Part shown: positions 9,640 to 64,000 of the stretch, piece after piece
Layout: each line of letters begins with the position of its first letter
Position numbering within the stretch: position 1 is the first letter of the stretch
NCBI GenBank assembly: GCA_013824115.1
Contig: PNNG01000017.1
Coordinates: 23,133-87,132, forward strand
Source: Sphingobacteriaceae bacterium
GTDB lineage: Bacteria; Bacteroidota; Bacteroidia; UBA7662
Length of the DNA stretch: 64,000 bases
Direction of reading: 5' to 3'
Made by a program: the position numbers and the translations under genes
Notes under the pieces: model-generated
Databases searched by the model: none
Seen by the model: the letters and a program-made list of their open reading frames with translations, nothing else
What the model was told of the DNA's origin: nothing

Positions 9640-10850
9640 TGGAAGTAGGTTTGGATGGTTTCGGGATTTGATTCAATAGCCAGTTGCATCAGTAGCAAAG
9701 CTGTTGCACTGTAGGTAAGTGGTGCTACACCTCCGGGCTTTCCTGAATCGGTGGCGTAATATTCGGGAAACACCCCATTTGCTTGGGTGCGTTGAAGTAA
9801 TTGCACATACTGGTTAAAGAGCTGTATGGCCAGTTCTCGGTAGCCATGGGCTGCCAGTGCTAAAGCCAGCCAGCCCGTAGCAATGGGCCAGCTGCCTCCA
9901 TTGTGGAAATGGTGTGGGTGGTTTTTGAATCGATGGGTGAACTGGCCAGCCAGCAGCGGCCAGTCGGTATCGCCAGGCTGAATTACTGGCCAAAACGCAG
10001 GCACCAGTTGTATTGGCCGCTGTTTGAGGAAGGATGCTAGCTGTTGCGCTACCCCGGATGGTTGCTGGTTTATGCCGGTTAACAAAGCAAAGGCATTGCC
10101 CATGGCATCCCAACGGGTGTCGTAACCCGATGGCCCGCAAGCTGCAAAGCAGTAGGTAGGCACTGCATTTTTAAGTCGTTGGTAAGCTTCAGGGTGGTAG
10201 CGCAAGTTGTTGGGTAAGGTGTTGAAAGTTGCCTTCGTTTTAGAAGCTATGGCATTGACTTTTGTTTGAGCATTTTCGGATGGCCAGATGGATGCCGCCA
10301 GTTGCTCTGCCCAAAGCCGCAAGGAATTGTCGTACAAGGTATGGCCATGGGTCACATATTCATCGGCCCAGTTGCCACCCAAAGGCGTATACAATAAGTC
10401 GGCATGATTAAATTCCCACGCACAAAACAGCGTACGGAGCTTGTTAACGGTAGGAGCGAATTGGGTAGCCAGGTCCTTGTCGTTTCGGTGTTTCACCAGC
10501 AGCGCTGCGCCTATGAGCCACCACAAGGAAGCATCTACCCGTCCTGCCAAGGTGCCATAACTAACTACCGGGGTATTCCCCAAGCCCACGCTCGAAGGAA
10601 TTTGGCCGTTGGGTGCTTGGTTTCGTGCTAAAATCAGCAAGGTGAGACGCAATTGTTCTACCAGCGCTTCGTCGCCAGCCATCAAGCCACATACTCCAGC
10701 CATGATGCCATCGCGTGCCCACACCCTTTGGTAATTGTCAACGGCTTTTTCGGATGCCAATATCCCTTCGGGCACAAAAGCACGTGCCAGACTGAGGCTG
10801 GCACGTGCGATCCATATTTGGGAGATGCTATTCATGCGATGGCAAAACAA
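9636..10850 (-). CDS. (alpha/alpha)6-barrel glycoside hydrolase (amylo-alpha-1,6-glucosidase/GH100-like)
   Basis: VWARDGIMAGVCGL, NQAPNGQIPS, GRVDASLWWLIG, GGSWPIATGWLALAL. Confidence 0.65.
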   Translation of the reverse strand: MFCHRMNSISQIWIARASLSLARAFVPEGILASEKAVDNYQRVWARDGIMAGVCGLMAGDEALVEQLRLTLLILARNQAPNGQIPSSVGLGNTPVVSYGTLAGRVDASLWWLIGAALLVKHRNDKDLATQFAPTVNKLRTLFCAWEFNHADLLYTPLGGNWADEYVTHGHTLYDNSLRLWAEQLAASIWPSENAQTKVNAIASKTKATFNTLPNNLRYHPEAYQRLKNAVPTYCFAACGPSGYDTRWDAMGNAFALLTGINQQPSGVAQQLASFLKQRPIQLVPAFWPVIQPGDTDWPLLAGQFTHRFKNHPHHFHNGGSWPIATGWLALALAAHGYRELAIQLFNQYVQLLQRTQANGVFPEYYATDSGKPGGVAPLTYSATALLLMQLAIESNPETIQTYFQ

Positions 10851-10859
10851 ACATCTTGA

Positions 10860-13484
10860 TTAAAAGCGGTATTGCACCGAGAAACCAATGGTTCTACCGG
10901 TGATGGGGCGAGCACGCACCAAATTCACCTGGTTGTCGGTAATGCCTCCTTCTTCGGCTTCGGTGATACCCAAAGCATTAAAAATATTGTTTCCATTAAG
11001 TGCAACGGAAATGTTGCCATTCAATTGGTAACGAACATATCCGTTCACAAAGGTGTAACCAGGCATCACAAGCACATTGTTGTCTTGCGTAAAGGCGCGC
11101 GACTGGCCAATGATGGTAGCACCTGCGTGCAGATTTTTCATTATTTGGTAGTTGGGAGCCACAAAGAACATCACACCAGGTTGGCGGCGTGGCATATTGC
11201 CCCAGTTGGCGGTATCGGCACCGCCGCTGATTTCGGCATTGGTGAAGGTGGCACCGGCACGTACATCGAGCTTACCAAACTGGGCAGCACCTTCGAGTTC
11301 AAGGCCAAATGCGCGGTAGTTGTTGTCGATGATGCGTTGGGTAGTGAGCTCAAATCCACCCGCCTCGGTAGTGGCCGCATAAAAAGCGGTAGCAAACAAG
11401 GCGAAATTTTTGAAATTGGCTTTGTATCCCAATTCAGCCTGGTCGATCATGTCTACTGCATTCAAGGCTACACCACCTGTGTAAGGCAAGTTTTGGAACA
11501 AAATGCGATCTGCTTTCGCCGAACCACCGCGGCTGTAGCGGCCAAATACTGCTGCTTGATCGTTGAGTTTGTAGTTTAAACCAGCTGAATACGACAAATA
11601 AGCGTATTCATAGGCTACTGGTGTACGCTTTTCATGGTCGACATAGGCTACCGACTGCTCCCAGGGACTGATAGTACCATCGTTATTCACGTCGGATGGA
11701 CGGTTGGAACCACCGGCAAAAGAGCCATACACGCTTCCCATATCGTAACGTGCCGAAACATCGGCGAACAAGCGATTAGCCATTACCCAGCTAGCCGAAA
11801 CGTAAGGAGAAGACGTATTGTGCTGGGTGTTGTACGAGCGGTGCAAATTGCCCCAGGCCGGCGTGCCATAAGCGTACAAGCCATTGGTGCTGAAGGCAGC
11901 TCCGGTTGAATCGAATACATTGACCATGCGGGCACCGTTGCCATTCACTTCCATGAGGTAGCTGTTCCACAGCCACGACATATCGATGTTTTGCTGCGAA
12001 CGGAAGTAACCCAAGGTGAGGTCAACACCTTTTACATTCTTCTTGAGTTTGAAGTCGTTCACAAACAAATTGAAATTGTTGAGTTCGGTATCGAAAAGGT
12101 GCATGCGCATGAGCAGGTTGTTGCCGGCGTTTCCGCTACCAAAGGCGGTACCGTCGGCGTAGCGCAAGGTAGCGCCTGCACCGGCAATGCTTTGCGCAAT
12201 GGTGCCGGGATTCCCAAATTCGGCAGGGAAAGGCGATACAAAGCGGCCGCTGTTGAACGACATACGGGTGCGGTTTTCGAGGCTCCAACCCTCGCCAATT
12301 TCGGTTGCAAATTCAGAGCCGATAGATGTCGACTGTGGATTCATGCCGTGCATGAGGTTGCTGGTGCGCAAGTCGCCAGCCACCCCGGTACCCAGGTTGT
12401 TAGTGAGGAAAGGCGATTGCAGGGCGCCACGACGGGCGTCGAAACCGGCTACCGATTCCCAAACCGGATTGGCAGCGGTGCCGCTTACCTGCATGGGCAT
12501 GGGCATATAGGCCGGTGTGCGGTCGTTCAAGTACTTCAAATATACCCTTGCATAACCGCTGTTGAAGCGCTTGGTGAGGTTGGCCTTGAACTGTCCGCCC
12601 TGGTTGGCATCAAAGCCCGTGGTACGCATGCCTTCGCCCTGGCGGATGAAGCCGCCCATGTGAAAACTCACACTTTCGTTGAGCGGTGCACCGTACTCAA
12701 AGTCGGTTCGGAACTGGTCGAAGTTCAAGCCATAAGAAGTCATGACACTGCCGCCAGCTATACCACCAGTTTTGCTGATGAGGTTGATGATACCTGCAGG
12801 TGAGTTGGTAGCCATCGTGGAGGCCGATCCACCGCGGATGGCTTCAATGCGTTGGATGGTTTGGTCGGCACGCAAAAAGATATCGGCTGTGGCAAAAGCA
12901 ATGTCGCCAAACTGCAAAATGGGCAAACCATCTTCCTGCAGTTGGAGGTACTTAGAACCACCCGATGAAATGGGCACACCACGCACAGCAATGTTGGTGT
13001 TGCCTTCACCCGCCGAGGCTTCTGAACGCACACCTGGAATGGTACGGAACAATTCAGCGGTGTTGCTCGGATTTTGGTTGGTGATGGTGGCGGTGTTGAT
13101 GGTGGTCATCGACACGCTGCTTTCGAGCTTCGATACCTTGTTCGATACCCCGGTAACTACCACGTCTTTGAGGCTAAGCACGTCGCGCTTGAGGGTAAAG
13201 TCAACCACGAGCAAAGCGCCCTTTACGGTTACCGTTTGGCTTACCGACTCATAGCCAATTTGAGAGGCCTTGAGTTTGTAGTCGCCAGCCGGGAGGTCGG
13301 CAATTTCGTAGCGGCCATCTACATCGGCCACAGCACCCCGCGATGTGCCTTCTACTTGTACGGTGGCATACATCAAAGGTGCTCCGCTGTCATCCGATAG
13401 CTTTCCCTTGATGGAGCCTTGGCCAAATACCACTGCCGGGAGGAGCAGCAAGACCAGACTTTTGAAAAAAGTAAACAGTTTCAT
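10860..13484 (-). CDS. TonB-dependent receptor with carboxypeptidase-regulatory-like N-terminal domain
   Basis: Signal peptide MKLFTFFKSLVLLLLPAVVFGQ, KGKLSDDSGAPLMYATVQVEGTSRGAVADVDGRYEI, plug and beta-barrel region. Start trimmed to ATG 13484. Confidence 0.88.
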   Translation of the reverse strand: MKLFTFFKSLVLLLLPAVVFGQGSIKGKLSDDSGAPLMYATVQVEGTSRGAVADVDGRYEIADLPAGDYKLKASQIGYESVSQTVTVKGALLVVDFTLKRDVLSLKDVVVTGVSNKVSKLESSVSMTTINTATITNQNPSNTAELFRTIPGVRSEASAGEGNTNIAVRGVPISSGGSKYLQLQEDGLPILQFGDIAFATADIFLRADQTIQRIEAIRGGSASTMATNSPAGIINLISKTGGIAGGSVMTSYGLNFDQFRTDFEYGAPLNESVSFHMGGFIRQGEGMRTTGFDANQGGQFKANLTKRFNSGYARVYLKYLNDRTPAYMPMPMQVSGTAANPVWESVAGFDARRGALQSPFLTNNLGTGVAGDLRTSNLMHGMNPQSTSIGSEFATEIGEGWSLENRTRMSFNSGRFVSPFPAEFGNPGTIAQSIAGAGATLRYADGTAFGSGNAGNNLLMRMHLFDTELNNFNLFVNDFKLKKNVKGVDLTLGYFRSQQNIDMSWLWNSYLMEVNGNGARMVNVFDSTGAAFSTNGLYAYGTPAWGNLHRSYNTQHNTSSPYVSASWVMANRLFADVSARYDMGSVYGSFAGGSNRPSDVNNDGTISPWEQSVAYVDHEKRTPVAYEYAYLSYSAGLNYKLNDQAAVFGRYSRGGSAKADRILFQNLPYTGGVALNAVDMIDQAELGYKANFKNFALFATAFYAATTEAGGFELTTQRIIDNNYRAFGLELEGAAQFGKLDVRAGATFTNAEISGGADTANWGNMPRRQPGVMFFVAPNYQIMKNLHAGATIIGQSRAFTQDNNVLVMPGYTFVNGYVRYQLNGNISVALNGNNIFNALGITEAEEGGITDNQVNLVRARPITGRTIGFSVQYRF

Positions 13485-53466: not shown

Positions 53467-54288
53467 TTAAAGCATGTCATCAGTCCAACTGATACAATTC
53501 AACGCCCCATCCTTTTTCGTAACCTCTGGCATTTCAATCGCCAGCATGCAGCCCCTGTAAGCAGGAAAATAGCGCTCCAACTGCTCCAGCACCTCCGCAT
53601 CATAGCGCGGCTCGATGCGCGTATACAGCAGCATTTTTTCGGTTTGTAGGAAGTTGAGATAGGGCCAATAGCTGTCGTTTTGGTAAGGAACACCAGAGAG
53701 TTTGAGCGCTTCCACATGCAATCCGGCCGCTTTCAGCGGATTTACCACTTCGGGGCAGTCGGCATAGTAGTAATTCACCAGCACCGTTTGTTCGTCAATA
53801 AAACGCACCATGCTATCGGCATGGCCGTAGGGATCTTTTACATCTGTTGGGATAAGTACCAGTTTTTCGACCCTAAAATGCTCCTTGAGCGCGGCTGTGA
53901 GCTGGGTTTTGTTGTAATGGTGGCGGTTTTCGGTAACCACCTTTTCGGCCATGATGAGTGTTTTGCCCCTTCTGATGACATTTCCTCCGTCAATAATCAG
54001 GTCGGTTTTGACAGTCTTTAATCCCATCGCATCGCATATGAGGTCGGGATAACTTTTCTTGCCTCGTTTGCCTGCCGTTGCACCTTGTAAATAATCGGGA
54101 TCGTACCGATATTCCAGCAGCTCACCGTTGGGCAAAGGAATGGGCATAAAATCGCGCACCCAAATGTCGCGGGTGCCGTGGATCAGGTCATGCGGCTGGC
54201 CAAATTGCTCGCAAGCGGCTTTGATCTGTTCGTAAACCGCGGGGTATGCTATGGGTAGTTGGTCGGAGAGGTAGAGGGTGTGGGGCAT
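53467..54288 (-). CDS. Agmatine deiminase/peptidyl-arginine deiminase family protein
   Basis: TRDIWVRDFMPI, DLIIDGGNVIRRGKTLIM, DPYGHADSMVRFIDEQTVLV. Confidence 0.82.
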   Translation of the reverse strand: MPHTLYLSDQLPIAYPAVYEQIKAACEQFGQPHDLIHGTRDIWVRDFMPIPLPNGELLEYRYDPDYLQGATAGKRGKKSYPDLICDAMGLKTVKTDLIIDGGNVIRRGKTLIMAEKVVTENRHHYNKTQLTAALKEHFRVEKLVLIPTDVKDPYGHADSMVRFIDEQTVLVNYYYADCPEVVNPLKAAGLHVEALKLSGVPYQNDSYWPYLNFLQTEKMLLYTRIEPRYDAEVLEQLERYFPAYRGCMLAIEMPEVTKKDGALNCISWTDDML

Positions 54289-54351: not shown

Positions 54352-55215
54352 GTGGTACTGCTTATGAAAAACGAAATCGTCTTGTATCAAACGGGTGAAT
54401 TGGCCGAACACATTGAGGTGCGGCTGGTTGAGGACACCGTTTGGTTGAATAGAAATCAATTGGTGGTCTTGTTTGGCAGAGACATCAAGACCATTGGCAA
54501 GCACATCAACAATATCTTTCAGGAAGACGAGCTCGATAGAAGTGCAACTGTCGCAAATTTTGCGACAGTTCAAATGGAAGGTGGTAGAGCTGTTGAAAGG
54601 CAATTGGAGTATTACAATTTGGATGTTATCATATCGGTAGGATACCGTGTAAAATCAAAACAAGGCACCCAATTCCGTATTTGGGCCACCCGAGTATTGC
54701 GTGATTATTTGCTCAAAGGCTATGCGCTCAATCAACGGATGGATCGCATTGAAAACAACTACGACGACCTGCGACAAGAAGTGAAGCAAATTGCTTTGCA
54801 ACTGAAGACGCAAGAGCTGCCGAACCAAGGCATCTTCTTCAACGGCCAAGTTTTCGATGCCTATGTTTTTGCAGCTGATTTGATTAAAAAGGCGAAATCG
54901 AGCATCATTCTGCTCGATAATTATGTAGACGAAAGCGTTTTAACCCTACTCAGCAAACGCAAGCCGGGCGTAACAGCAACCATTTACACCAAAACCATCA
55001 GTAAACAGCTGGAGTTAGATGTTGACAAGCACAACAGCCAATACCCCGCCATCCAAATCATCCCCTTCGCCCATGCACACGACCGTTTTTTGATACTTGA
55101 CGAAAAGGAGCTCTATCATTTAGGCGCCTCGTTGAAGGATTTGGGCAAACGGTGGTTCGCCTTTTCGAAGCTGGAAATTCCGGTGCGCGAGCTGTTGGGG
55201 AAGCTGCCGGGTTGA
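54352..55215 (+). CDS. RhuM-family protein with C-terminal PLD-like domain
   Basis: VRLVEDTVWLNRNQLVVLFGRDIKTIGKHINNIF...GYRVKSKQGTQFRIWATRVLRDYLLKGYALN; C-term ILLDNYVDESVLTLLSKR...HDRFLILDEKELYHLGASLKDLGK. Confidence 0.85.
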   Translation: MVLLMKNEIVLYQTGELAEHIEVRLVEDTVWLNRNQLVVLFGRDIKTIGKHINNIFQEDELDRSATVANFATVQMEGGRAVERQLEYYNLDVIISVGYRVKSKQGTQFRIWATRVLRDYLLKGYALNQRMDRIENNYDDLRQEVKQIALQLKTQELPNQGIFFNGQVFDAYVFAADLIKKAKSSIILLDNYVDESVLTLLSKRKPGVTATIYTKTISKQLELDVDKHNSQYPAIQIIPFAHAHDRFLILDEKELYHLGASLKDLGKRWFAFSKLEIPVRELLGKLPG

Positions 55216-55345: not shown

Positions 55346-56080
55346 TTACCCAATCAGATATTCCGACACCCAGTAGGGCATTTTTTCGCTTGGCAAATTA
55401 GGATGTATCTCGGAGCCTTCGTCTATTTGTGCTACCAAAAGGGCTTCTTCACCCGAATTGTCGAATAGAAATGCTCTGTTGCTCGATTTAACCGCTAGCT
55501 TAAGCAAGCTGAGACTTTTTTGGTAGCGATTACGCACGGTACTTGGATCTACTGAATGGCCAGCTTGTATCACTCTAAGTTGCACCCTATTGATATTGAT
55601 TTCGGGATCTTCCGTTGCAATGTAGTAGAGATAAACCTTATAGCCTTCCTCCATGGCCTTTTGCATGAAGGTGATTTTGCTTTCATGACTCATCACGGTT
55701 TCATAGGTGAAAGACAAGCCTTCATTCAACAACGCTCGCCGAAGCATTTCAGCGATATCGGCGGCTAGATAGGAATCGATAAGGGCAGAGGTTGTGAGTT
55801 TGTTTTTTGAAACATGTACTTTTTGCCATAAATCGGACTCTTGTCTTTTAATCGGAGAAAAGTTGCTAAGCTGAAAGAATTGTTGAACGTCAACCTCACT
55901 CAATACCAAACCATAATTCGCAAAATCAACGCCTTCCCCACGCCTCAAACAGGCTTCAATATCATCAGCATTTACATAATAACCTAGCTGCACCCTTTTT
56001 TCTGCAAGTAAGCCTTTTAAATAAGTCGTTTTCCCAGAGCCATTTGGGCCAGCAAAGACCCGCATTCTTCGAGTAGCCAT
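55346..56080 (-). CDS. Zeta-toxin-like P-loop kinase/ATPase
   Basis: MRVFAGPNGSGKTTYLKGLL, YYVNADDIEACL, FTYETVMSHESKITFMQKAMEEGYKVYLYYIATEDPEININRVQLRV. Confidence 0.8.
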   Translation of the reverse strand: MATRRMRVFAGPNGSGKTTYLKGLLAEKRVQLGYYVNADDIEACLRRGEGVDFANYGLVLSEVDVQQFFQLSNFSPIKRQESDLWQKVHVSKNKLTTSALIDSYLAADIAEMLRRALLNEGLSFTYETVMSHESKITFMQKAMEEGYKVYLYYIATEDPEININRVQLRVIQAGHSVDPSTVRNRYQKSLSLLKLAVKSSNRAFLFDNSGEEALLVAQIDEGSEIHPNLPSEKMPYWVSEYLIG

Positions 56081-56956: not shown

Positions 56957-57691
56957 TTAGTAGTTTTGAAAGGGTCTTGCTGTTTTGGTGGTGGTAATTA
57001 CCTCTTCTTGGCAAACGGCATGCATGGGTTCGTCGTCGAGTGCATCATGTGCAGCTCCGCACCAATGACAAAATTTGATTGGCTGGTATTCATCTTCATT
57101 GAAATTGGCATGGTAGCAAGGTTTGCATCTTACTCTATAGGGATTACGACGAAAATCGCCATTGATTTCGGTATTACAATCTACACAATGCCCCATTCTT
57201 GCTAGTCTCAATTTAGCAGCATCGACTTGTGCCAAAACCTGTTTTCTTTCTAAGTCAAATTTGCCGGGGTGATGCTTAACACTTGCATCTGCAAGGAGAT
57301 AATTATCGATGATTTCTTTTTTCGCTTTCGCAGTATCTACTGAAGTGGCTATTTCTAGATTGCGGACTTGCGAGGCGTCATACAAATTCATGCTGCTTAA
57401 CCAGCAGTTTTTTTCGTTCAAGTAGAGTTTGATGTGGTGATCTTTAATTTCATATACCTCAAAGCCCCATTCTTTATTGAGTTTTTGCAGGTGTTGCTGG
57501 TTCATTTGGTCCTGACGAATGATAAAAGTTAAGTGCACACCTCGTTTAGAGGCATTGTGCAATACGCGTTCGAACTGAGGCCAAATTTTGAGGTAAGGCG
57601 TTACCAAAATGCAATAAGCTTGTGCCTCTTCAATGAGGTCGATGATGGCCGTACTGAGTTCGTGGGTGCGGAGGAATCGAGTAATGTGCAT
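56957..57691 (-). CDS. PLD-family nuclease-like protein with C-terminal zinc ribbons
   Basis: AYCILVTPYLKIWPQFERVLHNASKRGVHLTFIIR...DHHIKLYLNEKNCWLSSMNL (HKD-like); CVDCN...CKPC and CHWCG...C. Confidence 0.8.
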   Translation of the reverse strand: MHITRFLRTHELSTAIIDLIEEAQAYCILVTPYLKIWPQFERVLHNASKRGVHLTFIIRQDQMNQQHLQKLNKEWGFEVYEIKDHHIKLYLNEKNCWLSSMNLYDASQVRNLEIATSVDTAKAKKEIIDNYLLADASVKHHPGKFDLERKQVLAQVDAAKLRLARMGHCVDCNTEINGDFRRNPYRVRCKPCYHANFNEDEYQPIKFCHWCGAAHDALDDEPMHAVCQEEVITTTKTARPFQNY

Positions 57692-57870: not shown

Positions 57871-59070
57871 ATGCATCGTATTCCTGCGCCATTTAGGAGG
57901 CTTAGTGTGAAGTACAACGACTTCGAACAAGTGCTGAACCTCAAAACAAACTCGGCTTTTAAAAACAATAAAGAAGAACAGGTAAGGCAAAAGACTTACC
58001 GTTGGTTAACCGAAAAGCTGGGGATCCACCCTGACTACATCACCTTTGAAGTGCATATCTCAGATGCAAAGGGTAGAGCTGATATTGTAGTGCGGGACGA
58101 AAAAGATGAAGTTATTTGGCTATTTGAATGTAAACATGAAGGTGTGCCGCTTTCGACTGATGTACTCAGACAGGTGGAGCGATACGATGATTTTATACAT
58201 GCTAAATTCTTTTCTATTACCAATGGCTTAGAAATAGAGAGCTATCGGTTTAATGAAAAAACCAAAAGCTCTGAACCAGTTGCTACTCCCTTAACTATGA
58301 AGGAACTCAAGGGCAAGTTCAGCAAGGCTATTTTTGAACCCCATCCTTTAACTTTTTTGAAATGGGAAGAGATACATGTTACTAACCCCATTGGCAAGCA
58401 TGCCAAAGAAATATTGACCTCCAATACAAAGGAGCTCCCTTTGCTGTGGCAAAAAGCAATGTTGAATCTATATAGAGCCTTAAACGTAACCCAGCGCAAC
58501 TATTGGGAGGGCAAAATGGGTAATTCAGCACTTGAAATTGAACGTGACCACGGAGTACAATTAATTCGAATGGGAAATGCAAGTGGATGGAATGGCGCTG
58601 CGCACATGCGAAGTCTCCAAGTAAACTACAAAAACAAGCATTATCGAGTAGGGTTGCAATTAATGCCATGGAGTAAGTCAGATGGTTCGAAACTAAGTTT
58701 AATAGTTAATCTGGCCACTTATGAACTTGCCGAACGGGATTCACATAATGCACTTCAATTAGATACCGAACGCTGCTTTGGAATTGGCTCACGCGGCCGC
58801 ATGTTCTGTTGGCACGACCGCGCGCCCAGCATTGGCAACCAAGGAAGCGCCAGCAATGCCGACTTTTTTGATTTTCTAAAGAAACAAGACCCCAATTGGC
58901 TGTACACCGATGCAGCAGGTAAAACTTGGGTCGATTTGGGCAGTTTTACCACAGGTAAATGGCTGACTTTTGCCAATGAAGATTTTAAAGTGGCGATTTT
59001 CCGAATTATCCAATATGCGATTATAAGGGATGAATTCAGGGAAGTCATGAAGTCAAACAACGTCAAATAG
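57871..59070 (+). CDS. HsdR-N-like PD-(D/E)XK nuclease-domain protein
   Basis: EEQVRQKTYRWLTEKLGIHPDYITFEVHISDAKGRADIVVRDEKDEVIWLFECKHEGVPL...QVERYDDF...FFSITNGLE. Confidence 0.75.
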   Translation: MHRIPAPFRRLSVKYNDFEQVLNLKTNSAFKNNKEEQVRQKTYRWLTEKLGIHPDYITFEVHISDAKGRADIVVRDEKDEVIWLFECKHEGVPLSTDVLRQVERYDDFIHAKFFSITNGLEIESYRFNEKTKSSEPVATPLTMKELKGKFSKAIFEPHPLTFLKWEEIHVTNPIGKHAKEILTSNTKELPLLWQKAMLNLYRALNVTQRNYWEGKMGNSALEIERDHGVQLIRMGNASGWNGAAHMRSLQVNYKNKHYRVGLQLMPWSKSDGSKLSLIVNLATYELAERDSHNALQLDTERCFGIGSRGRMFCWHDRAPSIGNQGSASNADFFDFLKKQDPNWLYTDAAGKTWVDLGSFTTGKWLTFANEDFKVAIFRIIQYAIIRDEFREVMKSNNVK

Positions 59071-59105
59071 TCAATAGATTTTTCATTTAACCTTAAACCA
59101 CAACT

Positions 59106-59663
59106 ATGACCGATCCTAACGAAGAAGTTGTAAAAGCCTTTCTCGAAATGAAAGGATTTTTTGTAAGAACTAATGTGAGATACACTGTAAAAGAGGGCAA
59201 GAAAGCTTCTGGTCAAAGCGATTTAGATATAGTTGCCCTAAACCCTAATGTCGAGCAAAATGGAAATGAACTTCCATTTGTACTTGAGGCAGGTCATTTT
59301 GATCAAATCAGTCACTTGGTCATGGAAATAAAGGGATGGCACAGTGAGAAAGTCACGAAATCGACCCTTAAAGCACATCCTCGAATATTCAATTTTATAC
59401 GTTCTGAAGCGAAACAGAAAGCAATTGAAACACTGAATAACAAGGATTTTGTTTCAGTTTTGGTGCTTTCTCGGGTGGGTTCAAAAGACAATAGCAAAGA
59501 GGAGCTTTTTCAAGAGTTGTTAGAAGGAGGAGTCACGCATGTCTTAGAATTTTCTACGATTATGGAGTATTTGATGATAAAAATTAAGTCGAATCTCAAT
59601 CAAGATAACTTGGTGCTACACAGCATTCGTTTAGCAAATATTTATGGCGAATCAGCAAAATAA
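59106..59663 (+). CDS. Second PD-(D/E)XK-like nuclease
   Basis: VVKAFLEMKGFFVRTNVRY...GQSDLDIVALNP...HLVMEIKGWH. Confidence 0.65.
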   Translation: MTDPNEEVVKAFLEMKGFFVRTNVRYTVKEGKKASGQSDLDIVALNPNVEQNGNELPFVLEAGHFDQISHLVMEIKGWHSEKVTKSTLKAHPRIFNFIRSEAKQKAIETLNNKDFVSVLVLSRVGSKDNSKEELFQELLEGGVTHVLEFSTIMEYLMIKIKSNLNQDNLVLHSIRLANIYGESAK

Positions 59664-60246
59664 TCCCTTTTTCAACCATGCTAAGGATTTGATGTTAGGG
59701 CATACTTGGCAAGTCAAGAACAGGTCTTTTCATTTCACCGAAATCGAATTTTACAGCAAATCTGTAGATGGCGGTGGCGACCCCTACACCCATGGCCATG
59801 CTGAGCAACAAAAAAGCAACACTTGGTATTTCCATGGTTCGGGCATCGACATCACTTTCGGAGATGAACATACTTATGGGGGGATCCTTATTCGTGGAAT
59901 TAAGTATTATGATAAAGAAGGCAAAGCACACTACGTTTCAGGCCCAATTAGGGTAGCAACCGAAATTTTTTCGGCGATCGGACAAACAGGTATTCAACAA
60001 CTAAACTTTGGTTTAAAAAAGCTTGATAAACCCTTAGAAGGAACTGTTTATAGTTGCCCTCGCGTAGGCTTAAATCCCAAACTAAACGCGGACTATGCCA
60101 ACAAACATTACCGTTTTGTCATGGACATTTGCCCCGAGCATAAATTCGCTCAAAAAGAACTTGTGGCCAAAGCGCTGTTAGAAAGCAAACAATTATCTGC
60201 CAAGGAAATTAATCCACTGTTTAGGTATAAAATCATCAAAGAATAG
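59644..60246 (+). CDS. Uncharacterised protein, possibly AAG/MPG-like DNA glycosylase
   Basis: HFTEIEFYSKSVDGGGDPYTHGH...YFHGSGIDITFGDEHTYGGILIRGI...VSGPIRVATEIF resembles AAG order ETEAY...YGM...VLLRALEP...GP. Confidence 0.4.
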   Translation: MANQQNNPFFNHAKDLMLGHTWQVKNRSFHFTEIEFYSKSVDGGGDPYTHGHAEQQKSNTWYFHGSGIDITFGDEHTYGGILIRGIKYYDKEGKAHYVSGPIRVATEIFSAIGQTGIQQLNFGLKKLDKPLEGTVYSCPRVGLNPKLNADYANKHYRFVMDICPEHKFAQKELVAKALLESKQLSAKEINPLFRYKIIKE

Positions 60247-60250
60247 GATC

Positions 60251-62869
60251 ATGAATGAAGTAAACGCCACCAATGTAGCTGACGAACTAGATCTGATTGA
60301 AACCATACGCTATGTAGGCGATGATCAAGCCGAGCAATTCTTTGCTTTTGCTCGAAGATTACTTCATGAACTTGAGCTAAAGCCCGATGACAAACGCCTG
60401 TCTTTTACCACCACCGCCAACCGCAGATTGGCATTTACCATTGGTCAACGCTATTGTTTGGCATATGTGCCTGAAGAGAACTATCCTTGGCATTTCATCT
60501 CCGGTGAATCTCTTCCTACGACTGCAGACAGGACGGAAAGCAGCTATTCGGGTGCACCAACTGCTTTCTATGAGCGTTGCGCTACGTCTGATGACATAAA
60601 AAACCACTTTAAACTGATTGTAAGGGCTGCTCAGGTTGAGCTCAATCGTGCAAACAAATCAGGATTTAGCAAACATTCGAATGCTTTGTTCGGCAATGTC
60701 GTTGCAATTGAAGAAGTGCAAGCTCTAATAATGGAAAAGGCTAAGCTCAAGCCAGGAGAAGTGAGTGGAAGGGTTTGGAAATTGGGCTGCACCTGGGGGC
60801 AGGGAAAACCAAGTTTTTATGACTTCATTAAAGAGGAAAAGATTGTTCTAGGGGATTATGATAATCATAAGCATTATCAAATAGGTGACCTAATCATGTT
60901 GACAGATGGGTTCCATGCAAAAGCGTTGGCACTGGTTACAGGTGAAGGAAACAGCTTAAATCAAGCAACTGCCTACAATGCCAAAGCGAATGAACTGAGC
61001 TTACCAGCTGAAGATCAAATACAATTTTATCCAGCAGAATGGTACGAACTACCTGAAGCACTTACATTTTATTACAAGCATAGACAAGGAAAAGCCCTCG
61101 TTAAGGACCTCTCAATTCAATCTAAGGTCAAAACATATTGGGCCAATCGCGCAGTGAATTACTGGCTCTTCCAAGGCAATCCTGAACAATACGGCTTTGA
61201 AGCCTCTTTGAGGCAAAATGCCTTGAATAACTGGTTGGTGAAAGCGCACCAAGACAAAATGACGGTGGGCGATAAAGTCATCATTTGGATTAGCGGCAAA
61301 ACTGGCGGCTGTATAGCTCTAGCTGAAATTACGAGCCCACCAGCTGAAATGACCGAAAGCGACGCCGAGCATTGGAAAGCCGAACCCATAACCGGATTAC
61401 GAGCTGGCATAAGGATAACACACAATTTCATTGAAAACCCCATACGCCCAGAAGAAATTAAAAATGTTGATGCCCTGAAAACGCTTAAAGCAGGCAACCA
61501 AGGCACCAATTTTCGTTCAAGTTATGAAGAGTACCAGGCATTACTGGCCTTGCGCAATCCAACCCAACAACCTCATCAACCCATCAAAATGCACCACTTG
61601 GCTTTGAATACCATCTTTTACGGTCCTCCCGGAACGGGCAAAACCTACAAAATGCAAGGCTTGATGCGTGACCACTTTATAGATAAAAATGCCATTCGTA
61701 ATCCCAGAGAAGTTTTGGCCGAAAAGCTGCAGCCTTATCCCCTTTGGAAGGTGCTTGCAGCGGCTTTGAGCCAGTTTAAAACGCCTACATCGGTTGCCCA
61801 AATACATGAAACCGAACTGGTGATGGCAAAGCTGAATCCTGAAACCAAAATGCCGCGCAATTCCATTTGGCGCACCCTACAGTCATATGCCGATGCAACC
61901 TCTACAGGCATTGATTCCAAATACAAAGCTGCTATTGAGCTTTTTACAAAAAATGATAAAAGCCGTTGGAGCATTATCCCATCGAAGGTCGAGGAATTGA
62001 ATGACATCCTTGACGCCGAATTATTGGCGCTGGCCAAATCACCCTTGGCAGAAACTACCGAACCAGTGCAAATTATCAACAAGCGCTACCGCTTCATCAC
62101 CTTCCACCAAAAGTATGGATACGAAGATTTTATAGAAGGTATCAAACCGGTATTGCAAGAAAGTGAGTCGGAAGAAGCAGTAGACGGCCTGCAATTCACC
62201 CTCAAAAAGGGCATCTTTTACGAAGCATGTTTACAGGCCTTAAAATTGGCAGGCTACGCCTCTTTTGCTGCTTGTTATGAAGACAGTCAAGAAGTACGTG
62301 CAGTAAAATTCAAGTCGGCCCTAGACGACCCCACCAAACACTTCGCCTTGTTCATTGACGAAATTAACCGCGCCAATATCTCCGCGGTATTTGGGGAGCT
62401 CATTACGCTGTTGGAGGACGATAAACGTGCGGGTGCAGAGCACGAAATGTGGGTGAAACTGCCCAGCTCAGGCGAGCATTTTAGTGTGCCAGCCAATTTG
62501 TATGTGATTGGCACCATGAATACGGCCGATAGGTCTATTGCTTTGCTCGACATTGCCTTGCGACGCAGGTTTAAATTTGAAGGTTTGTACCCCGAATATG
62601 TAGATGGTGCCTGGTGGAAAGACTTGCTTTTGGAGCTCAATAAGGCCATTTACAAGGTCAAGAAGAACGCCGATTTGTTTATTGGGCATGCTTTCTTTAT
62701 CAAGAAAAACGAAAGCGAAAGATCAACCATCTTAAATCACAAAATCATTCCGCTGCTGCACGAATACTGCCAGAACAACCAGGAACAGGTAAAAACCATT
62801 CTGCGGGAGGCTAAAATAGAATTTACAGAGCCTACCATCGAAAACAACTTCCAACTGATTGCCAAGTGA
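60251..62869 (+). CDS. mcrB: McrB-like AAA+ protein with EVE domain
   Basis: EVE-like YWANRAVNYWLFQGNPEQYGFEA...VGDKVIIWISGKTGGCIALAEI; AAA+ FYGPPGTGKTYKMQ, LFIDEINRANISAVFGELITLLE, VIGTMNTADRSIALLDIALRRRF. Confidence 0.92.
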   Translation: MNEVNATNVADELDLIETIRYVGDDQAEQFFAFARRLLHELELKPDDKRLSFTTTANRRLAFTIGQRYCLAYVPEENYPWHFISGESLPTTADRTESSYSGAPTAFYERCATSDDIKNHFKLIVRAAQVELNRANKSGFSKHSNALFGNVVAIEEVQALIMEKAKLKPGEVSGRVWKLGCTWGQGKPSFYDFIKEEKIVLGDYDNHKHYQIGDLIMLTDGFHAKALALVTGEGNSLNQATAYNAKANELSLPAEDQIQFYPAEWYELPEALTFYYKHRQGKALVKDLSIQSKVKTYWANRAVNYWLFQGNPEQYGFEASLRQNALNNWLVKAHQDKMTVGDKVIIWISGKTGGCIALAEITSPPAEMTESDAEHWKAEPITGLRAGIRITHNFIENPIRPEEIKNVDALKTLKAGNQGTNFRSSYEEYQALLALRNPTQQPHQPIKMHHLALNTIFYGPPGTGKTYKMQGLMRDHFIDKNAIRNPREVLAEKLQPYPLWKVLAAALSQFKTPTSVAQIHETELVMAKLNPETKMPRNSIWRTLQSYADATSTGIDSKYKAAIELFTKNDKSRWSIIPSKVEELNDILDAELLALAKSPLAETTEPVQIINKRYRFITFHQKYGYEDFIEGIKPVLQESESEEAVDGLQFTLKKGIFYEACLQALKLAGYASFAACYEDSQEVRAVKFKSALDDPTKHFALFIDEINRANISAVFGELITLLEDDKRAGAEHEMWVKLPSSGEHFSVPANLYVIGTMNTADRSIALLDIALRRRFKFEGLYPEYVDGAWWKDLLLELNKAIYKVKKNADLFIGHAFFIKKNESERSTILNHKIIPLLHEYCQNNQEQVKTILREAKIEFTEPTIENNFQLIAK

Positions 62870-64000
62870 GGTTGTACGAATGGGATACCGCCAAGCACAG
62901 CTTAAGCGAGCAGCAACTGCATCGCTTTGAGCAGTATTTGCATGAGGTTTGGCGGAACCGACAAAAATTCGACACCGAAGAAAACAGCCATTGGGGTAAC
63001 AAGCCCCTTGACGAGCAAAAGCAACAGTTTTTTCAGTTCGGCTACGACCACCGCTTGCAAGCCCGCAACTACGTGGGCGTGGTGCAGTTTGAGGGTTTGC
63101 GCATCCAGGTGCTGCCCAAAATCATGCGCGACCGCAACTTGCTCGACCCCCAATTACAGCAACGCAATTTGCTCTTTTGGTTGAGTTATTGCCAACGCAT
63201 CCGCTTTCCTTTTGGCAAGGCAAATGTGGATACACTCGATACCGAAGACACCCTGGAACTGCTCGTGTACGTATTTGCCAACCTGGCCACCGAGCTTTTG
63301 AGTAACCAACCCTTGCAAGCCTACCAGCAGCTCAATGAAACCACCAGCTACCTGAAAGGCCAGCTCAACATGCCTGCTTACATCGGTAATCAATTGAGCA
63401 CTGGCCGTTGGCACGAGTTCAGTTGTACCCACGCCCCTTTTGTGTACGACAACCTATTCAACCGCATTGTGAAGCAGGTAGCACAGCGACTACGTTACAT
63501 CAGTAATCACCCTTTCAACCAAACCAAATTGGGCGAACTGCTTTTTCTACTCGATGAAGTAAGCCCACAAAGTGTAACTGCTGCCGATTGCGACAAAGTA
63601 AGCCTCAATACCCTGCAGCAAGATCATGCCGATGTACTGCAGCTCTGCAGGCTCTTTTTGTCGAATCAAGTAATGGATTTAGCCGACGACCACAGCCGCA
63701 AATTCTGCTTCTTATTGCCCATGGAGGTGATTTTCGAAGACTTTATTGCCGGTTTTATTGAAGCCCACTTCCCAGAATGGAAAGCCAGCAAACAAGCCAC
63801 TGATTATTTGGCCACTACCGAGGGCAAGGACATATTCCAAATCCGCAACGACCTCTATTTTCCCAACCGCCTCATTGTCGACACCAAATACAAAACCCTC
63901 TACCCAACCGACGACAAATTCGGCATCAGCCAAGCCGATATGTACCAAATGGTGGCCTATGCGCTCAAGCGCAATTGTTTTCGGGTGATGCTGTTGTACC
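62866..64000 (+). CDS. mcrC: McrC, nuclease subunit of McrBC (3' end beyond window; absent from ORF track)
   Basis: GTG start overlapping the mcrB TGA. Open to the window end: RLYEWDTAKHSL...RNYVGVVQFEGLRIQVLPKI...LLFWLSYC...PLQAYQQ...YLKGQLNMPAYI...VDTKYKTLY. Confidence 0.92.
   Translation, partial: MRLYEWDTAKHSLSEQQLHRFEQYLHEVWRNRQKFDTEENSHWGNKPLDEQKQQFFQFGYDHRLQARNYVGVVQFEGLRIQVLPKIMRDRNLLDPQLQQRNLLFWLSYCQRIRFPFGKANVDTLDTEDTLELLVYVFANLATELLSNQPLQAYQQLNETTSYLKGQLNMPAYIGNQLSTGRWHEFSCTHAPFVYDNLFNRIVKQVAQRLRYISNHPFNQTKLGELLFLLDEVSPQSVTAADCDKVSLNTLQQDHADVLQLCRLFLSNQVMDLADDHSRKFCFLLPMEVIFEDFIAGFIEAHFPEWKASKQATDYLATTEGKDIFQIRNDLYFPNRLIVDTKYKTLYPTDDKFGISQADMYQMVAYALKRNCFRVMLLY

Follow-up and report, generated by a model that had tools for sequence, protein, structure and literature searches.

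At the end of a contig from a Sphingobacteriaceae bacterium, an McrBC restriction module is preceded by three further genes on the same strand. Do these genes belong to the module as dedicated accessory effectors of an expanded Type IV restriction system, as a first-pass annotation made from the sequence proposed, or were they brought beside it from elsewhere? We analysed the whole stretch of 64,000 nucleotides that ends with them (the window) and arrive at the second answer as the probable one: a horizontally acquired, locally assembled defence cassette, in which an EVE-McrBC core stands with three genes recruited from other contexts.

Five genes packed at a contig end

Five open reading frames (ORFs) called on the window follow one another on the plus strand from 57871 to 64000: ORF 1 (57871-59070, 399 aa), ORF 2 (59106-59663, 185 aa), ORF 3 (59644-60246, 200 aa), ORF 4 (60251-62869, 872 aa) and ORF 5 (62866-64000, 378 aa, open at its end). 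The junctions between them measure, in order, 35 nt, -20 nt, 4 nt and -4 nt. Genes and junctions match the first-pass annotation exactly, and the overlaps and short gaps support its reading of a single, tightly packed unit that would be cotranscribed. With the dcw genes nearby as the training set of a codon model, the best-scoring frame of each of the five ORFs was its own; for ORF 2, the probability of a 185-codon open frame arising by chance at its AT-rich composition is about 4e-7.

The window ends where the contig does, so the last residues of ORF 5 and anything downstream are unseen. Because the genome is fragmented (40 contigs) and 85% complete, the five-gene locus counts as one observation.

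A conventional EVE-McrBC core

ORF 4 contains an EVE domain at residues 303-420 (Pfam, E 1.6e-9) and an AAA_5 domain (E 2.5e-13), and matches the NCBIfam McrB model PRK11331 with an E-value of 2e-30. From its N-terminus it is built of a module spanning residues 1-160, a possible EVE/PUA-like segment recognised by eye at about 170-280, the EVE domain and an AAA+ GTPase with the motifs GPPGTGKT at 458, LFIDEINRAN at 700 and NTAD, of NxxD form, at about 757. ORF 5 is assigned as the McrC endonuclease by Pfam family PF10117 (E 1.6e-66) and carries the catalytic stretch IVDTKYK, the PD-(D/E)XK motif of McrC, at 337; since 317 of the 318 model positions are covered from the first onwards, it must be nearly complete.

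A census of McrBC systems places the NxD form of the GTPase motif in the branch that holds the CoCoNuTs, and the NxxD form in the conventional groups (PMC11090510). CoCoNuTs resemble the present locus in combining McrBC with additional nucleases, but they carry NxD along with coiled coils, and the NTAD of ORF 4 rules out membership. EVE-McrB has been called the commonest defence fusion of the EVE domain and is abundant in Bacteroidetes (PMC7641849). By domain content and motifs, ORFs 4 and 5 are thus classed as a Type IV restriction module of the conventional, already known, DNA-targeting EVE-McrBC kind, as had been read at first pass. They share the EVE-McrB GTPase, McrC and the NxxD signature with published EVE-McrBC systems (Bell et al. 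2020, PMC7641849; 2024, PMC11090510), and differ from these in the three extra genes directly upstream of mcrBC. The word "glycosylase" is absent from the main texts of both papers.

Two upstream genes with nuclease-like features

Residues 34-136 of ORF 1 match the HSDR_N_2 family (PF13588, E 5e-17; GRADIVV...ECK), and the catalytic pattern D70...E86-x-K88 lies within this domain. ORF 1 has the nuclease domain in common with the N-terminal part of Type I HsdR (HSDR_N), but it lacks the helicase/translocase part of that enzyme, and neither HsdM nor HsdS was found nearby. Its C-terminal half, of about 250 aa, belongs to no family, and nothing that matches it was found when 344 other genomes of the class were searched. 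The only full-length relative found is encoded on a Hymenobacter plasmid (24% identity, E 8e-20 in a single comparison), where it is solitary, beside an IS5 transposase and without McrBC. This plasmid gene is also the sole match when ORFs 1-3 are compared with viruses, phages and plasmids.

ORF 2 displays a PD-(D/E)XK-like pattern, read from the sequence as D41 and E74-x-K76. Searches of Pfam and NCBIfam gave it no named family; its one PHROG match, phrog_34729 (E 6e-4), is a group of unknown function, and no credible relative turned up among 296 other genomes, plasmids, phages and IMG/VR viral contigs. A single-sequence AF2 model reached a pLDDT of 40, and its fold is unusable. The assignment of this near-orphan as a small nuclease therefore comes from the motif and is tentative. 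The first-pass annotation had counted two extra PD-(D/E)XK proteins: the HsdR-N-like one, ORF 1, is borne out by the Pfam match and the catalytic pattern, and the claim for ORF 2 goes no further than the motif reading. Two candidate matches of ORF 2 were discarded: one in genome G288 (E 6e-4), an acidic low-complexity protein encoded beside a chemotaxis gene, and one to RNA_lig_T4_1 (E 0.013, below the cut-off), taken to be due to chance.

A divergent relative of AAG

ORF 3 matches nothing in Pfam (at E<1), NCBIfam, PADLOC or PHROG; in particular, neither ORF 3 nor three of its relatives is recognised by the AAG model PF02245. Comparison of profiles is more informative. A family profile of ORF 3 aligned by hhalign over 149 columns with that of 20 canonical AAG proteins gave a probability of 92.5% (P 4.7e-7). 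In control alignments, reversed AAG scored 0.5%, 20 column shuffles scored 6% at most, and unrelated neighbour families stayed at or below 2%, except for one beta-rich outlier at 37%. The AF2 model of ORF 3 is confident (pLDDT 91.4, pTM 0.88); a Foldseek search of the PDB with this model returned human AAG at ranks 1-6, each with probability 1.00, the other matches listed having 0.08 or less.

The alignment of the ORF 3 family comprises 52 sequences, in which E35, Y37, H64, G67, D69, G100 and P101 are invariant. We take E35 to be the equivalent of the catalytic E125 of human AAG, Y37 of Y127, D46 of D132 and R84 of R182, with H50 corresponding approximately to H136. E35 and Y37 are found in 52/52 sequences and R84 in 51/52. 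Position 50 is His in 32/52 and Tyr in 19/52.

Fold, collinear motifs and the equivalents of Glu125, Tyr127 and Arg182 are therefore common to ORF 3 and the AAG/MPG 3-methyladenine DNA glycosylases (PF02245; PDB 1f6o, 1ewn). ORF 3 departs from them in its identity of about 16%, which puts it below Pfam detection, and in an altered base pocket and intercalation loop. Its place in the AAG superfamily is given by predicted fold and profile, not by membership of PF02245. On these grounds, ORF 3 is very probably a divergent AAG-superfamily protein with an intact catalytic acid, and what was put forward at first as a possible DNA glycosylase becomes a predicted one. Since the genome also encodes a separate canonical AAG, ORF 3 is not the housekeeping enzyme.

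Could ORF 3 have kept the fold and lost the activity, so as to bind a modified base or a lesion and feed McrBC or a deiminase? Its great divergence from AAG, together with the altered aromatic pocket and the Gly, Tyr or Asn found at position 65, where human AAG has the intercalating Tyr162, would suit such a binder. Roughly one family member in three has Tyr in place of the H136 equivalent, and this also weighs against our preferred explanation, in which the glycosylase activity is a predicted one. Yet the equivalents of E125, Y127, D132 and R182 are invariant, or nearly so, in 52 divergent sequences, which favours catalysis, and we regard a pure binder as quite improbable.

The five genes are found together once

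Scanning one genome per species yielded 61 relatives of ORF 3, mostly from Bacteroidota. We surveyed up to 10 kb of DNA on each side of them, some contigs being shorter, and found McrB or McrC beside 0/61. ORF 3 as a McrBC-dedicated part is thereby rejected as a general rule. Conversely, none of ORFs 1-3 occurs at the other Bacteroidota EVE-McrBC loci sampled (eight loci and one EVE-only fragment). With these two results, the solitary relative of ORF 1 and the lack of any relative of ORF 2, the set of ORFs 1-5 is known from a single genome. The first-pass annotation had named linkage of homologues of 59106-60246 to mcrBC as its own check; it gave 0/61 for ORF 3, and for ORF 2 no homologue was found. 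Its claim that the upstream genes are dedicated accessories of McrBC thus fails the check that it had set itself and is not supported.

We accordingly find it unlikely that ORFs 1-3 are dedicated effectors working with EVE-McrBC, the glycosylase making abasic sites that the nucleases would process. This expanded Type IV system would account for the tight same-strand packing with its overlaps and for the resemblance of every part to a nucleic-acid enzyme. The absence of both ORF 3 and McrC from relatives is consistent with their joint acquisition, and defence against phages by base excision is already known (Brig1/Brig3, PMC13160076). However, no second genome has the arrangement, other EVE-McrBC loci do without ORFs 1-3, the relative of ORF 1 stands alone, and GC content runs from 37% in ORF 2 to 50% in McrC. 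The preferred reading, local assembly from several sources, has to face the geometry of the junctions in turn: the 20-nt overlap between ORFs 2 and 3 and the 4-nt gap into mcrB have a geometry suited to translational coupling and could indicate long co-adaptation in place of loose recruitment.

A variable region with defence-like neighbours

The region is variable. Neither McrC nor ORF 3 has a match in any of 16 other genomes of the family. A genome of the same genus (G380) shares ftsZ, a PAD_porph deiminase gene and a RhuM gene with the window in the same order, and synteny breaks after the PAD-RhuM pair. GC content is 54% in the dcw cluster and 42, 37, 41, 45 and 50% in ORFs 1 to 5; the genes of the cassette may have come from more than one source.

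In the window, the deiminase gene lies at 53467-54288 on the minus strand (PF04371, E 1e-19), 5.4 kb from ORF 3 and opposite to it; the protein keeps the catalytic residues D100, H156, D158 and C265, and is of the type that pairs with the ORF 3 family elsewhere. It was probably resident before the cassette arrived. It is also possible that it is a partner displaced by the cassette; in G380, the PAD-RhuM pair occupies the corresponding position and ORF 3 is lacking.

Immediately upstream of the operon and divergent from it, a gene at 56957-57691 (minus strand) encodes a PLD-type phosphodiesterase (PLDc_2, E 1e-11 in Pfam) with a zinc-ribbon-like C-terminal part. In another genome of the Bacteroidota, a homologue (E 2e-22; L146:9185-9874) directly precedes EVE-McrBC, and from this position the phosphodiesterase is a possible associate of McrBC. 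Between deiminase and phosphodiesterase are a RhuM-family protein (54352-55215, plus strand; PADLOC PDC-S05, E 9e-125) and a zeta-toxin-like kinase (55346-56080, minus strand), which form a small defence or toxin-antitoxin neighbourhood by the operon.

How the cassette might act

In the locally assembled cassette that we favour, the EVE domain would bind a modified base, whereupon the GTPase ring of McrB would translocate and McrC would cut. The three recruited genes upstream, in the same operon, would contribute an HSDR_N-type nuclease, a small nuclease-like protein and an AAG-superfamily glycosylase. Acting on incoming DNA, the glycosylase would most likely excise a base that is modified or alkylated and leave abasic sites, at which the nucleases or McrC could then cut. 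Modified DNA would in this way come under two kinds of attack, excision and translocation-coupled cleavage. Cooperation of ORF 3 with McrBC is possible, as suggested by the packing of the genes in one genome.

A fully composite Type IV system, with the AAG-superfamily glycosylase excising the modified base and joining the HSDR_N and small nucleases and EVE-McrBC in destroying the DNA, seems to us rather unlikely. If it did exist, it would be the first case of McrBC restriction coupled to base excision, and it would draw on an undescribed branch of AAG which, at other loci, makes up a pair of genes together with a PAD-type deiminase. Phage defence by base excision is a recent field that rests so far on relatives of uracil-DNA glycosylases, from which the authors of the work on Brig1 and Brig3 think that these enzymes derive (PMC13160076). 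The idea of excising modified phage bases is common to the Brig enzymes and the present proposal, and in Brig3-BapA an operon partner widens the target range; the Brig fold differs from that of ORF 3, however, and the brig3-bapA operon contains no McrBC. An AAG-fold enzyme in an operon for modification-dependent restriction would bring a second fold to the glycosylases of phage defence, and would speak for the possibility of combining excision with cleavage by McrBC. Among the papers that our literature search covered, none was found to link AAG-type glycosylases with McrBC, phage defence or agmatine deiminase.

The ORF 3 family and its deiminase partner

The predicted glycosylase family of ORF 3 is not specific to McrBC: elsewhere it occurs without McrBC and often with a PAD-type deiminase. 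In 23/61 loci, the ORF 3 relative has a short PAD_porph deiminase gene on its own strand within 50 nt, frequently with an overlap of 4 or 10 nt, and in 29/61 there is one within 1.5 kb. The paired deiminases keep the same four catalytic residues (D100, H156, D158 and C265), and linked relatives occur all over the tree of ORF 3, at 27 of the 51 tips other than the window. When the genomes of 25 deiminase-free ORF 3 loci were searched, a high-scoring deiminase of the paired type was encoded elsewhere in two and none was found in 23. Since 2/25 is near the frequency in the class at large, where about 8% of genomes have such a deiminase, the deiminase is a frequent, not an obligatory, partner of ORF 3.

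A few unpaired relatives adjoin defence genes, namely those of a type I HsdR (L007), a type IIG restriction-modification enzyme (L010), the BREX protein BrxC (L029) and PbeA (L031). Many others have ordinary chromosomal surroundings, a setting that fits DNA repair as much as defence.

These contexts bear on a further explanation, which we hold to be doubtful though possible: that McrBC works alone, that ORFs 1-3, as unrelated genes for defence or repair, landed upstream of it in a hotspot, and that ORF 3 serves in repair, as a glycosylase that acts on an unusual alkyl lesion and is functionally tied to PAD-type deiminases, possibly to the one 5.4 kb away. The deiminase pairing recurs throughout the family tree, the window has a deiminase of the paired type in spite of its rarity in the class, most relatives of ORF 3 sit in ordinary contexts, and the GC content of the five genes is heterogeneous. 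Against such passengers, the deiminase is not required, as the 23 genomes with none of that type elsewhere attest, and ORFs 2-4 overlap or abut, which is unusual among unrelated neighbours. A recruited, locally assembled cassette remains the explanation that we prefer.

The AAG-like family and its pairing with the deiminase are the more interesting and more general find. This uncharacterised, Bacteroidota-wide family has no Pfam model, and its repeated pairing with PAD_porph makes it a testable unknown in DNA repair or defence.

Paired loci include L011, L012, L014, L017, L052, L060 and L061 (at about 9950-11400 of the locus). A MukB-like assignment at L034 covers 53 residues only and is weak. 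In Algoriphagus (L061:7654-10456 and L005), three genes overlap in series: one for an N6/N4 DNA methyltransferase-like protein runs into the start of the ORF 3 relative, and this in turn overlaps the deiminase gene. At two further loci (L010:10535-11209 and L022:10421-11092), a protein of about 224 aa with a GFNPGG motif is encoded 15 nt after the ORF 3 relative; it matches uracil-DNA glycosylase family 4 weakly (E 0.03), and these loci possibly encode two glycosylases in tandem.
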